NCBI GenBank assembly: GCA_937902985.1
Contig: CALFNG010000256.1
Location: forward strand, 1 to 64,000
Length of the DNA: 64,000 bases
Direction: 5' to 3'
Source: an uncultured Myxococcales bacterium
Lineage (GTDB): Bacteria > Myxococcota_A > Polyangia > Polyangiales > Polyangiaceae
A program made the position numbers and the translations under genes. This document shows positions 9,412 to 16,396 of this stretch, piece by piece. The notes under the pieces were generated by a model, which was not told where the DNA came from, made no database searches, and worked only from the letters and a program-made list of their open reading frames with translations. Position 1 is the stretch's first letter; each line of letters starts with the position of its first letter.

Positions 9412-10431
9412 GTGAACGACCTTTTCTTGCGGGCGTGTCGTCGGGAACCGGTGGAGCGGACGCCGGTGTGGTTCATGCGCCAGGCCGGGCGCTACATGGC
9501 CGAGTACCGGAAGATTCGCGAGACGCGGACGCTCATCGAGATCTGCAAGACGCCGGAGATCGCGACCGAGGTCACGCTCCAGCCCCTGAAGTTCGGGTTC
9601 GACGCGGCCATCCTCTTCGCGGACATCCTGTTGCCGCTCGAGCCGATGGGCGCCTCGTTCGAGTTCGCCAAGGGCGAGGGGCCGGTCATTCACGAGCCCG
9701 TCGTGAGCCGCGCGCAGATCGACCGCCTTCGCGTCATCGACCCCGAAGAGTCGCTCCCGTACGTCCTCTCGACGATCAAGCTCCTCAAGCGCGAGCTCGA
9801 GGTTCCGCTCATCGGCTTCGCCGGGGCCCCCTTCACGCTCGCGAGCTACCTCATCGAAGGCGGCAAGAGCGCGAACTTCGCGAAGACCAAGAGGCTCATG
9901 TTCGGCGCCCCCGACGCCTGGGCGGCGCTGATGACGACGCTGAGCGAAGTCGTGCGCCGCTACCTGCGCGCGCAGGTCGCCGCCGGCGCCGACGCCATCC
10001 AGGTCTTCGACTCGTGGGTCGGCGATCTGGCGCCCGCCGACTACGCGGAGTTCGTGCACCCGTACGTGCACCGCATCCTCGCCGACGTACAGACCACGGG
10101 CGTGCCCGTCATTCATTTCGGGGTCGGCACGTCCACGCTCCTCGAGTCGATGCGCGACGCGGGCGGCACCGTCATCGGCGTCGACTTCTGCACCCCGCTC
10201 GACGAAGCATGGAAGCGCATCGGCTATGACCGGGGCGTGCAAGGAAACATGGACCCGTGCGCACTCCTCGCCACGCGCGACGTGGCGATCCGGCACGCGC
10301 AGCGCGCGCTCGACGCGGCCGGCAACCGTCCAGGGCACATTTTCAACCTCGGGCACGGAATCACGCCCGAGACGCCGGTCGACAACGTGAAGGCCGTGGT
10401 CGAGCACGTGCACCAGGCCAGCGCGCGATGA
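9412..10431 (+). CDS. hemE: Uroporphyrinogen decarboxylase
   Basis: NDLFLRACRREPVERTPVWFMRQAGRYMAEYRKIR; PLKFGFDAAILFADIL; GFAGAPFTLASY; HFGVGT. Confidence 0.97.
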   Translation: MNDLFLRACRREPVERTPVWFMRQAGRYMAEYRKIRETRTLIEICKTPEIATEVTLQPLKFGFDAAILFADILLPLEPMGASFEFAKGEGPVIHEPVVSRAQIDRLRVIDPEESLPYVLSTIKLLKRELEVPLIGFAGAPFTLASYLIEGGKSANFAKTKRLMFGAPDAWAALMTTLSEVVRRYLRAQVAAGADAIQVFDSWVGDLAPADYAEFVHPYVHRILADVQTTGVPVIHFGVGTSTLLESMRDAGGTVIGVDFCTPLDEAWKRIGYDRGVQGNMDPCALLATRDVAIRHAQRALDAAGNRPGHIFNLGHGITPETPVDNVKAVVEHVHQASAR

Positions 10432-11339
10432 GCGTCGAGGCGGTGGTCCTCGTCTCGCACGGCACCGTCGAGAATCTGGAAGACCTCGCGGGGTTCGTCA
10501 CCAACGTGCGTCGTGGTCGACCGGCCCCACCGGAGCTCATCGCCGAGCTTCGCCATCGCTACGAGGCCATCGGCGGCTCGCCTCTCAACCGGATCAACGC
10601 CGAGCTCGCAGGCAAGCTGGCGTCGCGCCTCGGGGTGCCCGCTGCCGCGGCCAATCGCCTCTGGCACCCGTACGTCCGCGAGGTCGTCGGTCCGTTCGTC
10701 GAAGCGGGCGTGCGCCGCGTCGTCCTCCTCCCGCTCGCGCAGCACTCGGTCCACGTCTACGCCGATGACGGGCAGCGCGCCGTCGAGGGGATGGGCGTCG
10801 AGCTCACGACCGCGCCGTCTTGGGGTGAGCGCGCCGATCTCTGCGAGGCGTTCGCGCGTCGTATCGTATCCACGCTCGGCCGCTCTCCGGAGCCGGCGTC
10901 ACCGACGACGCTCCTCTTGACGGCCCACAGCCTTCCGGTGTCGGTCGTGGCCGCGGGCGATCCCTACGAGCGCGACTTTCGCGCCGCCGCGTCGGCGGTC
11001 GAGCGGGCGGTGCGCGCTCGTGTCCCGACGGACTTGAACGTCGTCGTGGCGTTCCAGAGCCAGGGGATGTCGCCCGGCCCCGCCGCCATCGAGTGGCTGG
11101 GCCCGGACCTCCGCACTTCCCTTGACGCCGCGGCGGCGCGTGGCTCGGGGCGCGTCGTGATCGCGCCGATCGGCTTTCTCGCCGACCACGTCGAGGTGCT
11201 CTACGACCTCGACCTCGAAGCTCGGGACATGGCGGCGGAGCGCGGAATGGCGTACGCGCGCGTGCCCTCGCTCAACGCCGACGATGACTTCGTCGACGTC
11301 CTGGCGGCGGTCGCCCGTCCGCTCCTGGGTCATGGCTGA
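10428..11339 (+). CDS. hemH: Ferrochelatase
   Basis: ATG overlaps hemE stop (ATGA); VLVSHGTVENLEDL..NVRRGRPAP, TAHSLPVSVV, VAFQSQGMSPGPAAIEW, IGFLADHVEVLYDLD. Confidence 0.9.
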   Translation: MSVEAVVLVSHGTVENLEDLAGFVTNVRRGRPAPPELIAELRHRYEAIGGSPLNRINAELAGKLASRLGVPAAAANRLWHPYVREVVGPFVEAGVRRVVLLPLAQHSVHVYADDGQRAVEGMGVELTTAPSWGERADLCEAFARRIVSTLGRSPEPASPTTLLLTAHSLPVSVVAAGDPYERDFRAAASAVERAVRARVPTDLNVVVAFQSQGMSPGPAAIEWLGPDLRTSLDAAAARGSGRVVIAPIGFLADHVEVLYDLDLEARDMAAERGMAYARVPSLNADDDFVDVLAAVARPLLGHG

Positions 11340-12573
11340 ACGCAAGCGCCTCGTCGTCGTCGGGGGCGGCGTCACCGGGCTCGCCGCCGCGCACGCCGCG
11401 CTCGCCCGGGCGCGCGAGCTGCGCCGCGACCTTGCCATCACCGTCATCGAAGAGATGCCGCGCTTCGGCGGCAACATCGTGACGGCGCGGGCCGGCGGCT
11501 TCTTGCTCGACGGCGGCGCCGACTCGTGGGTCGCGAGCAAACCGCACGCGTCTGCCCTCGCGCGCTAGCTCGGCCTCGGCGGCGCGCTCATCGGAACGAA
11601 CGAGGCCAACCGCCGCTATTACATCGCGTGGAACGGCGCGCTGCATGCGGTGCCCGAGGGCCTCGTGCTCGGCGTCCCCACGAAGCTCGCGGCCCTCACG
11701 CGGACGCAGCTCTTTTCCCTGCCGGGCAAGCTCCGGATGGCGCTCGAGCTCCTCGTCCCGGTCCGTCGCGACGACGCGGGCGACGAGTCGATCGCGGACT
11801 TCGCGCGGCGCCGCCTGGGCCGCGAGGCGGCCGACCGCCTCGTCGCGCCGCTCCTCGGGGGCATCTCGGCGGGAGACGCGAGCGATCTCTAGGTGCGGTC
11901 CGCGTTCCCCAAGCTCGTGGCGATGGAGCGCGAGCACGGGTCGCTCGTTCGCGGCATGCGCGCGCAGCAGCGGGCGCGCCGCGCGTCGAACGGCGACGGC
12001 CGCGAAGGGAGCGCGTTCGTGTCGCTCGGCGGCGGCGTGGGCGAACTCCTCGACGCCATGGTGGAGCGCCTTCGCGCCGAAGGCGTCGAGCTGCGCCGCG
12101 GCGCGGGCATTCGAGCGCTCGCGCGCGCGGGCAGCGGATGGGCCCTGTCGACGCACGGCGGCGGCGCGCTCGAGGCCGACGCGGTGCTGCTCGCGATCCC
12201 CCCGTACGCCGCGGCGCGTGTGGCGGGCACCCACGACGAAGCCCTCGAGCGAATGCGAGTCTTCGTGGGCGGGCCGCTCGCCACGGAGCACCTCCGCGGC
12301 GACGACGCCTCGCTCGTTGCCCTCGCGCGCAGCGAACTCCAGTCGCTCATGGGCCTCACTGCCGAGCCCGTGCTCTCCCGCGTGTTTCGATTCGAACGGG
12401 GGAGCACGCAGATGCGCGTGGGCCACGCCGGCATCATGCTCGAACTTCGCCGGCGTCTCGCCGCCGTCGCGCCCGGGGTCGCGATCGCGGGCGGCGGCTA
12501 CGACGGCATCGGGATCCCCGACTGCATCCGGCAGGGTCAGGACGCGGCGCGGACGCTCATCGAGGGTCTTTGA
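11332..12573 (+). pseudogene. hemG: Protoporphyrinogen oxidase (HemG/HemY type) with two in-frame TAG codons
   Basis: Single frame from ATG 11332 to TGA 12571-12573 with only two interruptions, TAG at 11566-11568 and TAG at 11890-11892. VVVGGGVTGLAAAHAAL; GGADSWVASKPHA; NEANRRYYIAWNGALHAVPEGLVLGVPT; VAPLLGGISAGD; FRFERGSTQMRVGHA. Confidence 0.85.
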
Positions 12574-12591: not shown

Positions 12592-13410
12592 CTAGAACCC
12601 GACGCCGACCACGCTGCGCACCCAGATCGGGCCGTAGTTGTCGTTTGGCGCCGCCGTGTGATCGAGCTCGGTGACGCGGGCGTAGACCGCCGTCGACCAC
12701 CAGATCTTCCCGAAGTCGAACATGACCGCCGGGCCCACGAAGGCTTGCGGCCGGAGGGAGAAGGGCCGAGTCGGCGGCGGAGAGCTCGGGAACTCGTCGC
12801 GGAGCCAGGAGTCGATGCCGACGCTGAAGAGGGGAGTCACCTGATAGGTCGCGCCCAGGGTCGGGTTGATGACCCAGTCTTGCTGGTTCGCCGAGTAGAG
12901 CCACTCGCGCTCGGCCCAGAGATTCGCCGCGACGCGGAGGTCGCCGATCCGCTTTTGCAGGATGATCTTCGCCTCGAGCTCGAACTCGTCTTCGTACTCC
13001 ACGACCTCTCCGTAGAGCGCGACGTCGATCGGCCAGGCCCCCTCGTCGGCGAGGCGAAGGCGAAGGCGCTCCTTGAGGCCCGTGCCCTCCGTGAGCACCG
13101 CGGTGTTCACGTATTGCTCTCCGGGTCGGGGCGCGATCGCGCCGTAGATGGCCATCTCGAGGCGGTCGGTGATGCCGTATTCGAGCTCGGTCTGGAACTG
13201 CGTCGCGGTGTACCAGACGTTCGCTCCCGAGATCTGCGACTCGGCCTTGACCGGCACGAGGTCGACGTATTGCTCGACCTCGGCGTCGCCCTCGGGCAGC
13301 GTCTCGTAGTTGTACGTGAACGGGAGCGGGCGTGGATTGGCGCGCGCGAACACGGACGACGAGCAGACGGCTACGACGATCGCGGGGGCAATCCACCTGG
13401 ACTTATGCAC
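12592..13410 (-). CDS. Outer-membrane beta-barrel protein (operon-terminal)
   Basis: GTG start at 13410 with signal peptide VHKSRWIAPAIVVAVCSSSVFARA; alternating amphipathic strands; ends ...WVRSVVGVGF (C-terminal Phe). Confidence 0.72.
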   Translation of the reverse strand: MHKSRWIAPAIVVAVCSSSVFARANPRPLPFTYNYETLPEGDAEVEQYVDLVPVKAESQISGANVWYTATQFQTELEYGITDRLEMAIYGAIAPRPGEQYVNTAVLTEGTGLKERLRLRLADEGAWPIDVALYGEVVEYEDEFELEAKIILQKRIGDLRVAANLWAEREWLYSANQQDWVINPTLGATYQVTPLFSVGIDSWLRDEFPSSPPPTRPFSLRPQAFVGPAVMFDFGKIWWSTAVYARVTELDHTAAPNDNYGPIWVRSVVGVGF

Positions 13411-13420
13411 GGCTGACCTT

Positions 13421-13999
13421 TCAGAACGACGAGAGTTCGAATCCCATTGTCCACACGAAATCGTTAGTCTTGGCGCCCGCGTGGCAATCGTTGCAGGTGG
13501 CGGGGTTGCCGCCGTACGTCTCGCCGTTGGGGGGCCCGTTGCCGCGCCAAACGATCCGCACGTTGTCGGCGTCGAGGTTCTGGAGCTCGAACCACTCCCA
13601 GTCAACGGCGCCGCCAGGATCGAAGCCTCCGCCGCGCTTCTGCATCGCAAAGATCTTGCGCGTCGTGAGCTCGCCGACGTTGACCTCCTTCACGATGATC
13701 GTCCCGACCGGAAACGAGGTGCTCCCGGGCGGCGGCCTCGCGTTGATGTACGCGGTCATCGGGCCCATCGAGTGCGCTCCGCCATCGACCGCGGCGAGGA
13801 GATCCGCCGCGGCGTCGGGGGGGCCGACGCCGGGCGTGGAGGCCCACGAGTGAAAGTCCTTGAAGGCCGGCGCGTACACCGGGACGCCGGCGCCGGCCGT
13901 TCCTCCGTCGCTCGCATCGGCCCCGCCGCCGCAGCCGGCGACGAGCGCCGAGACGACGAGTGCGGGCAACGCGCGGGAGATGCCGGCGGTCGGGCTCAT
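13421..13999 (-). CDS. Cytochrome P460-like c-type heme lipoprotein
   Basis: MSPTAGISRALPALVVSALVAGCGGG (lipobox); GTIIVKEV..FAMQKRGGGFDPGGAVDWEWFELQ...VRIVWRGNGPPNGETYGGNPATCNDCHAGAKTNDFVW. Confidence 0.75.
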   Translation of the reverse strand: MSPTAGISRALPALVVSALVAGCGGGADASDGGTAGAGVPVYAPAFKDFHSWASTPGVGPPDAAADLLAAVDGGAHSMGPMTAYINARPPPGSTSFPVGTIIVKEVNVGELTTRKIFAMQKRGGGFDPGGAVDWEWFELQNLDADNVRIVWRGNGPPNGETYGGNPATCNDCHAGAKTNDFVWTMGFELSSF

Positions 14000-14001
14000 G
14001 A

Positions 14002-15081
14002 TCACTCGGTGAACGTCGGTAGCCCGCAGAGGGCCGCCGCGTCGTTCATCTCGGAGACGGTAGAGTCGGCCTTCGTCGCGTCGACCGCCGAGTCGGCGGC
14101 CGTATAGAGCTGGCCGAACGGCGTCATCAGGTCGGCGGCGCTCGGCGTGACGTCGCTCCAGTCGGCGGGCGGCTTGGGGAACGCGTCGCCGGCGTACGCG
14201 GCGCTGTCGTAGACCGACTTGAGGCCGACAAAGCTCGCGTTCACCTTGGCGTCGACGTCGCTGCCCCCGGCCTTCGACTTGATCCAGGGCGAGAAGACGG
14301 CATAGATGATCGTCGTCCCGGCGAGGTTCTGGCGAAGGTCGTCCATCGTCCGCTGCGAATAGCGCGACTCTTCCTGGTCGAGGCCCGCCTTCGTGACCTT
14401 CTCCTTCTGCTCGTTCATCAGCGACGTGAGGCCGCTGAACGCGCTCCCGATGTCGATCATGGCCGGCGTCCACCCGTTGAGCAGATCGGTGGCGTCGGTG
14501 ATGATCTTCGCGCAGAGCTTGTTCTTGAAGTCGTCGGCGTCTTGCTGCGTCTTCGGGTACGACTGCGGCGGCACGTAGCCCAGCCCCGTTTCATAGGCGA
14601 CCACCGAGGCCGGCGTGACGCTCGCGTAGAGGATGCGCTCGACCGCGTGCAGCCCGGTCATCCCCTGGTCGCTGAACATGTCGCTCGTCGCGTTGAGCGC
14701 GCCGGTGCCCGCGCCCATCGAGAAGTCTTCGACGCGGCCATCGATCGAGATGTCGATATCCGGAAAGACCGGCGCGGTGGCGCCCTCGACGTGCTCGTAC
14801 GCGTGGCGCGCGGCGATCCAGGCGGCCTCCATCACCGGCACGGCGGGATCGGTCTCGTCCCAGGGGTGGTCCGGCGCCGCCGCTTGCATATCGGTCGCCG
14901 CTTTCACCAGCGCCTTGAGGTCCGTCTGCAGCGAATCGTGCATTCCCTGCGTCGCTTCCTGCTGGAACTGCGCGTCGGTCTTCGGCGCGCTCGCGGCGCC
15001 GCTGCTCGAGCTGCACGCGGTCACCGCCCCCATGACCGGTGTCATCGTGACCCCGAGCGCGCACTTCATCCATCCCTTCAT
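14002..15081 (-). CDS. Imelysin-family (M75-like) lipoprotein
   Basis: Lipoprotein signal ..VMGAVTACSSS; DMFSDQGMTGLHAVERILY contains the GxHxxE imelysin motif. Confidence 0.78.
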   Translation of the reverse strand: MKGWMKCALGVTMTPVMGAVTACSSSSGAASAPKTDAQFQQEATQGMHDSLQTDLKALVKAATDMQAAAPDHPWDETDPAVPVMEAAWIAARHAYEHVEGATAPVFPDIDISIDGRVEDFSMGAGTGALNATSDMFSDQGMTGLHAVERILYASVTPASVVAYETGLGYVPPQSYPKTQQDADDFKNKLCAKIITDATDLLNGWTPAMIDIGSAFSGLTSLMNEQKEKVTKAGLDQEESRYSQRTMDDLRQNLAGTTIIYAVFSPWIKSKAGGSDVDAKVNASFVGLKSVYDSAAYAGDAFPKPPADWSDVTPSAADLMTPFGQLYTAADSAVDATKADSTVSEMNDAAALCGLPTFTE

Positions 15082-15113
15082 CTGTCGTCTCCTCGCGAAT
15101 CAACGTCACTTCG

Positions 15114-16361
15114 TCAAAGAGCCTGGACGTAGGCGACCAGGGTCGCCCGGTCGGCGGCCGAGAGCTGCTGGAAGGCCGCGACGGACGCCGTTGCTTCGCC
15201 TCCGTGCATCGCGATCGCGTCCTCGATCGTGTGGGCCCGTCCGTCGTTCAGATAGGCCTGCATGTACTTGAGCGCGATGAGCGGCGTCGTCCGGAAGTCG
15301 GACGACCTGGCCATGCCATCGGGCATGCCGTCGGCGAGCGCGGGGCCCATGTCGTGCAGGAGGAGATCGCTGTAAATCGGGGCATCGATCCCCGCGAGCT
15401 GCGTGACGGGGTAGTCCGAGCGCGTCTTCAGCGTCTGCACGTGGCACACGCTGCACTGGACCTGATCGAAGAGCGCGCTCCCCGCCGGCGTCAGGTTCAC
15501 GCGCGTCGGAATCGCCGTGAGGCGCATGTACGTCGCGATCTGGTCGATGATGCTCGCCTCGATGTCGACGCCCGGCTTGGCGTCGTCGGTCAGCCCGTCC
15601 GGGTTCGGGAGCTCGACCGGGCGCAGCGGGCTCGTGATGCCCATGTCGTTCTGGAACGCATCGGCCGCGAAGTCGTCGAGCGTGGAAATGCGGGCCTTGA
15701 GGCCGAAGCGGCCGATGACCGTGTCGCCGAAGGCGTGCGGGTTGAATGCAGCGTTCGCGGTCGTCTTCGAGCTGTACGTGACGTAGTTGACCCGCCCGTG
15801 AATCGCGTCGGTGCGCGTGGACTGCTCGGCGGCGACCCGAACGATCTCGCTGTCGAGAACGGCCTCGACGTATCCGCGACCGACGATCGCCGGCGGCGTG
15901 CGGATCGTGACCTTCACGTCCGGCAGGTCGGGCGGGTTCACGAGCGTCGTCGCACCCGCGCTCAGTCGTGCCCGGATCTCGTTGCCGTAAAGGATCGGTG
16001 ACTGATCGGCCGCGGTCGTGAAGCCGTCGGCCTCGACCATCACCATGCGCTGGTCGAAGCCGGGGCCGCGGAGGCCGTTGTCGTGGCACAGGCCGCAGGA
16101 GACGTTCACGTAGAGCGGGCCGAGCCCGTCGACCTCGGCGAACGGGAGATCGAAGAAGCCGTCGCCCCTGGTGAAGCTGTCGAACTGCTCGGTGGTGGCG
16201 CCGGAAAAGATCTGGTCGAGGCGCGCGTTCGTGATCGGCGCCGGCCCCGCGTCCGGCGACGGCGGGCTGGCCGCGGGCCCGGAGGAGCCGCAAGAGCCAA
16301 GGAGCAAGGCGAGGGTAACAAGGCCGACCGCGCGAAGCGGCAACACGGCAACGTCCAGCAC
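15114..16361 (-). CDS. Di-heme oxidoreductase (DUF1111) lipoprotein
   Basis: LLLGSCGSSG lipobox; GDGFFDLPFAEVDGLGPLYVNVSCGLCHDNGLRGPGFDQRM; QCSVCHVQTLKTRSDYPVTQLAG; two CxxCH. Exact start uncertain (GTG 16361 or internal). Confidence 0.83.
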   Translation of the reverse strand: MLDVAVLPLRAVGLVTLALLLGSCGSSGPAASPPSPDAGPAPITNARLDQIFSGATTEQFDSFTRGDGFFDLPFAEVDGLGPLYVNVSCGLCHDNGLRGPGFDQRMVMVEADGFTTAADQSPILYGNEIRARLSAGATTLVNPPDLPDVKVTIRTPPAIVGRGYVEAVLDSEIVRVAAEQSTRTDAIHGRVNYVTYSSKTTANAAFNPHAFGDTVIGRFGLKARISTLDDFAADAFQNDMGITSPLRPVELPNPDGLTDDAKPGVDIEASIIDQIATYMRLTAIPTRVNLTPAGSALFDQVQCSVCHVQTLKTRSDYPVTQLAGIDAPIYSDLLLHDMGPALADGMPDGMARSSDFRTTPLIALKYMQAYLNDGRAHTIEDAIAMHGGEATASVAAFQQLSAADRATLVAYVQAL

Positions 16362-16367
16362 CCTAAG

Positions 16368-16396
16368 ACTCTACTCGAACTGATATTCACTTTCAA
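16368..16396 (-). promoter_or_regulatory. Candidate sigma70-type promoter with overlapping Fur-like box (16381-16395)
   Basis: Minus strand TTGAAA (16396-16391) - 17 nt - TAGAGT (16373-16368). Box TGATATTCACTTTCA matches 11/14 of TGATAATnATTATCA. Confidence 0.55.

Follow-up and report, generated by a model that had tools for sequence, protein, structure and literature searches.

The four-gene operon described here, from an uncultured myxobacterium, is fairly likely to encode an iron-regulated, envelope-anchored module for iron capture and redox chemistry; in kind, it is an imelysin/DUF1111 operon with additions. It lies on the minus strand of the window (the whole stretch of 64,000 nucleotides that was analysed), running from 16361 to 12592; the contig is C256, and the draft genome to which it belongs measures 8.3 Mb and is 96% complete. 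Read 5′ to 3′, the first gene encodes a di-heme lipoprotein of family PF06537 (DHOR) and the second an imelysin of the M75 family, also a lipoprotein; a P460-like c-heme lipoprotein comes third and an outer-membrane barrel fourth (Table 1). The recurrence of this gene order, the co-occurrence of its parts across genomes, Fur-like boxes upstream and conserved metal ligands in the imelysin all count in favour of iron capture. So do published imelysin/DUF1111 operons of other bacteria, for which either control by Fur or induction at low iron is on record (PMC3143127, PMC7567364). The pairing of a di-heme protein with an imelysin is already known; what appears to be new is the recurrence of a P460-like gene in third place, along with the exchangeable barrel, and a literature search of partial coverage found no paper joining imelysin and cytochrome P460.

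Table 1. Features of the operon and its upstream region.
Feature	Position	Strand	Basis and remarks
DHOR/DUF1111 di-heme oxidoreductase lipoprotein	15114..16361	-	PF06537; start codon position approximate
Imelysin/M75 lipoprotein	14002..15081	-	PF09375; M75 domain alone
P460-like c-heme lipoprotein	13421..13999	-	CNDCH; PF16694 below cutoff
Outer-membrane beta-barrel, ~12 strands, signal peptide	12592..13410	-	AlphaFold2 model, Foldseek, C-terminal Phe
Fur-box-like 7-1-7 palindrome TGAAAGTGAATATCA	16381..16395	-	10/13 consensus positions
Promoter-like hexamers TTGAAA / TAGAGT, spacer 17	16368..16396	-	Consensus match alone

The four gene products

A sequence-only reading had described four closely spaced genes of these families, with three lipoproteins, c-type heme motifs in the first and third products, a GxHxxE imelysin and a terminal barrel ending in Phe. 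Each of these points is borne out. The gaps between the genes measure 32, 2 and 10 nt, the predicted lipoboxes (LGSC, VTAC and VAGC, in gene order) can be read by motif, and Pfam, profile and structure evidence supports the families. The P460-like and barrel frames in the mechanical list of open reading frames begin farther upstream than the conserved products, which start at 13999 and ~13410. A terminator scan of the operon region found none.

The di-heme protein matches PF06537 at E 2.6e-44 (151.9 bits against a Pfam cutoff of 22) and is the one such match in the whole genome. Its two heme motifs, CGLCH at 16097-16083 and CSVCH at 15455-15441, are both kept in 50 of 50 homologues. PDB searches with the sequences of this and the P460-like protein, and with the barrel profile, gave nothing useful.

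For the imelysin, the match to PF09375 has an E-value of 4.2e-16 (59.8 bits; Pfam cutoff 23.5), and the GxHxxE motif reads GLHAVE at 14655-14638. In EfeM, the metal ligands are His126, Glu129 and Glu189 at site III, and Glu90, Glu93, Asp103 and Asp107 at site IV (PMC9174327). Matched by motif, these correspond to H145, E148 and E238, and to E96, E99, D110 and D114, respectively. All seven positions are at least 95% conserved among 60 imelysin homologues; the position of EfeM Asp190 is occupied by Ser. Together with the Fur-like box, the conserved ligands support the link to metal, here iron, that had been drawn from the sequence. It is very improbable that the same architecture serves another metal (copper or zinc), or that the imelysin has the metallopeptidase activity originally suggested for ICMP. 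The M75 family was founded on a protease report, although structural work has argued against a peptidase role (both PMC3143127); Cu and Zn also stabilise EfeO, as cited in PMC9174327, whereas boxes of the Fur type favour iron.

The third product carries its CNDCH motif near the C-terminus (13495-13481). Its match to PF16694 falls under the Pfam cutoff of 27 (E 3.2e-4, 21.5 bits), the homologue in locus L064 scores 31.7 against the same cutoff, and 19 of 26 family members give matches at E ≤ 1. A profile built from 26 homologues retrieves cytochrome P460 structures at 7e-5, with related entries weaker, and hhalign pairs the protein with McP460 at 95.7% probability. In this alignment Lys104 (13690-13688, within FPVGTIIVK) falls on Lys78 of McP460, the heme-cross-linking Lys of that protein (PMC11928373, PMC6427953); Lys104 is thus a candidate for the same function, and 50 of 60 family members have Lys at its position. 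One further Lys, one Trp and the heme Cys and His are invariant among the 60. These residues resemble in kind, with numbering unmatched, the two Trp, one Gly, two Lys and CXXCH that are fully conserved among 144 cytochromes P460 (PMC6427953).

The protein thus shares with cytochromes P460 and c′-beta (McP460, NeP460, NsP460) the C-terminal CxxCH, the aligned Lys and the conserved Trp/Gly/Lys. It differs from them in being a lipoprotein, in belonging to an imelysin operon and in lacking the stretch that holds the catalytic carboxylate (Asp102), which hhalign shows as a gap across the family. With this distal carboxylate missing, on which hydroxylamine oxidation by the active cytochromes P460 depends, a role as hydroxylamine oxidase is not favoured. 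The structural model has a pLDDT of 79.5 and six short strands; a Foldseek search of the PDB gave no match below E 1e-3 and did not retrieve P460. The P460 assignment therefore rests on sequence profiles, and is good at the profile level and unproven at the fold level.

The fourth product has no Pfam match. Its AlphaFold2 model, built on a 21-homologue alignment, is a confident barrel of about 12 strands (pLDDT 93.9, pTM 0.87); such a prediction had been proposed earlier as a check. The best Foldseek match is the COG4313 channel Pput2725 (4rl8; E 1e-7, TM 0.6, 14% identity), followed by FapF, and the model and these ranks identify the product as an outer-membrane barrel. Pput2725 likewise has 12 strands and comparable length; besides the low identity and the lack of a Pfam match, the operon's barrel differs in its many near-invariant acidic residues. 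The near-invariant charged positions of the family are indeed mostly acidic, which would suit a cation path.

COG4313 channels have been proposed to carry hydrophobic substrates (PMC4493636). A system in which the barrel imports a hydrophobic organic compound and the heme proteins oxidise it at the cell surface would fit the nearest solved relative, which also counts against iron capture, as well as the weak match of one barrel homologue to Phenol_MetA_deg. Among homologues, matches to the COG4313 family profile (PF13557) are only weak. This explanation is nonetheless improbable; it accounts neither for the unrelated barrels at other loci, a TonB-dependent receptor included, nor for the imelysin and the Fur-like boxes.

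Recurrence of the gene order

Loci were collected from 184 genomes of the same order, from named genomes and from a phylum-wide search, and were merged to 82 distinct loci after removal of duplicates. The most frequent order among them is di-heme, imelysin, P460-like, and 38 of the 82 have the same three- or four-gene order. All four parts, with a barrel-type gene fourth, occur in 17 loci including the window; since 16 other distinct loci carry them, the four-gene order is not due to chance. The neighbourhood search suggested alongside the sequence-only reading thus found the genes together elsewhere, and the observation withstood the main refuting condition set for it, a lack of co-occurrence. 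The relatives' records are labelled Polyangiaceae, Byssovorax, Labilithrix and Myxococcales, among others. One metagenome-assembled genome with a myxobacterial-type four-gene cassette is titled Klebsiella pneumoniae, probably wrongly.

The fourth slot is filled by three families. The window-type barrel occupies it in six loci (the window and five others), another porin in nine, one of which matches Porin_O_P, and a TonB-dependent receptor in two; in the remaining 21 loci with the three-gene order, no barrel was recognised, which counts against iron capture. Cassettes of the porin type are also found in genomes beyond the order and beyond the class, and the layout therefore spans the phylum, with a changing barrel. 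This exchangeability suggests that the first three proteins form the core. Most homologues of the operon's barrel sit apart from the other three genes, which counts against iron capture, and the idea of a barrel family dedicated to the operon was rejected on this ground. A further 19 members lie outside any such operon and have few neighbours in common.

Among the 184 genomes, 41 encode an imelysin and 37 a P460-like protein (strong scores); both are present in 33 (hypergeometric P 1.7e-24, uncorrected for relatedness). At 28 of 51 imelysin loci, the next gene downstream on the same strand is the P460-like one. P460-like proteins are thereby placed in a gene context that recurs and lies outside nitrogen metabolism, and the imelysin/DUF1111 operons acquire two more recurrent parts.

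Some loci depart from this pattern. Five lack the P460-like gene and have one for a ferritin-like or rubrerythrin-like protein after the imelysin, as if the two genes were mutually replaceable. The ferritin-like protein in these five loci and the TonB-dependent receptor in two stay within an iron theme and so count in favour of iron capture. In one locus, a phosphoesterase gene (PF04185) stands between the imelysin and P460-like genes; in L064 and three others, a gene for a PhoX-like protein adjoins the P460-like gene. Distant P460-like relatives come from six loci, in records labelled Prolixibacteraceae, Ignavibacteriae, Thalassomonas and Desulfobacterales, and have neither imelysin nor di-heme genes nearby; the collection scan for such relatives used a five-sequence alignment, which undersamples distant members.

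Regulation and the proposed role in iron capture

Some 20 nt separate the Fur-box-like palindrome from the start of the first gene. The palindrome overlaps the promoter-like hexamers, which are the sole such match between 12400 and 17000 (0.4 expected). Homologous operons show a strong enrichment of Fur-like boxes in their upstream regions: of 50 such regions, each preceding a homologous di-heme gene, 20 score at least 10, not all of them independent since some loci are close relatives. Only 1.4% of random windows score as high, and no more than 1 of 50 Markov-resampled upstreams does. Among 400 permutations of the half-site letters, the Fur pattern and one near-identical variant score highest. 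The box is thus a predicted Fur-type site, of a pattern that Fur and PerR share, and the operon is probably switched on under iron scarcity.

In the proposed mechanism, iron shortage would release a Fur-type repressor from the operator, and the four genes would be transcribed together. Free or chelated iron would enter through the outer-membrane barrel and be bound by the HxxE and ExxE/D/D sites of the imelysin lipoprotein. The di-heme and P460-like proteins may control whether the metal is oxidised or reduced, or clear peroxide made beside it. A transporter of the inner membrane, encoded at another place, might then take over the iron; FeoB is one example, and the genome has a gene for it. 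None of the four operon genes encodes an inner-membrane permease, and with positive controls detected, the 96% complete genome has no match to FTR1/EfeU; both findings count against iron capture. The earlier description of a self-contained periplasmic metal module therefore holds for the four-gene neighbourhood and not for the self-containment; with no permease in the operon, and a barrel family found mostly elsewhere, "importer" in that sense goes too far. Metal oxidation or import by the operon is what we infer.

The shared pattern of Fur and PerR boxes also counts against iron capture, and it bears on the chief rival, envelope defence against peroxide or NO. Under a PerR-type box, a di-heme peroxidase would act beside a P460-like protein that binds or converts NO or related gases, while the imelysin withholds iron from Fenton chemistry. 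The first gene product is indeed of the di-heme peroxidase type, P460 and c′-beta proteins bind NO and CO (PMC11928373), and the third product lacks the carboxylate of hydroxylamine oxidation yet retains the Lys. In Leptospira, both H2O2 and low iron induce an operon with an imelysin and a cytochrome (PMC7567364). Detoxification, however, needs neither a barrel nor a TonB-dependent receptor as fourth gene, and the acidic metal site conserved in the imelysin speaks for uptake; overall, we regard a defence role as unlikely.

What is known of P460 chemistry concerns nitrogen compounds and the binding of gases rather than iron, and this too counts against iron capture. A more far-reaching form of the iron-capture reading can be offered tentatively, and with considerable doubt: myxobacteria may have recruited a P460-fold heme protein, possibly Lys-cross-linked, to iron acquisition. 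Together with the di-heme protein, it may work in the envelope as a ferroxidase or as a ferric reductase and so load the imelysin, with the outer-membrane gate swapped freely among unrelated barrels. The exchangeable barrel makes the question of how imelysin systems move metal across the outer membrane directly testable.

Related systems and flanking genes

A second imelysin of the GxxxxE type (PA4372-like) is found in Pseudomonas and Vibrio operons and is absent from some published ones. None was found in the present genome, which has a single M75 match, although a divergent copy could escape the profile. In this respect the myxobacterial operon differs from the type of P. aeruginosa PA4370-PA4373 and Leptospira LIMLP_14170-14180, where the operon has two imelysins; it also has the extra P460-like gene and the exchangeable barrel. 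The shared features are a GxHxxE imelysin lipoprotein beside a di-heme DUF1111-type protein, iron-linked regulation (predicted in the present case) and the lack of EfeU (PMC3143127, PMC7567364).

With the ferrous-iron system EfeUOB/EfeM, the operon has in common the M75 domain and its metal-ligand positions; the imelysin scores 57.8 against the EfeO family (cutoff 270). Identity with EfeUOB was rejected, because the genome has no match to FTR1 or, again with positive controls detected, to DyP/EfeB, and FeoB is encoded elsewhere.

Genes for heme synthesis lie next to the operon. A protoporphyrinogen oxidase-like gene at 11329-12573 on the plus strand, convergent with the operon, has two in-frame TAG codons; it may be a pseudogene or a more unusual case, or reflect an artefact of the assembly or strain. 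General recoding of TAG is unlikely, since TAG ends the barrel gene normally. At 9412-11339, also on the plus strand, genes for uroporphyrinogen decarboxylase and ferrochelatase adjoin the heme-protein operon and face it.
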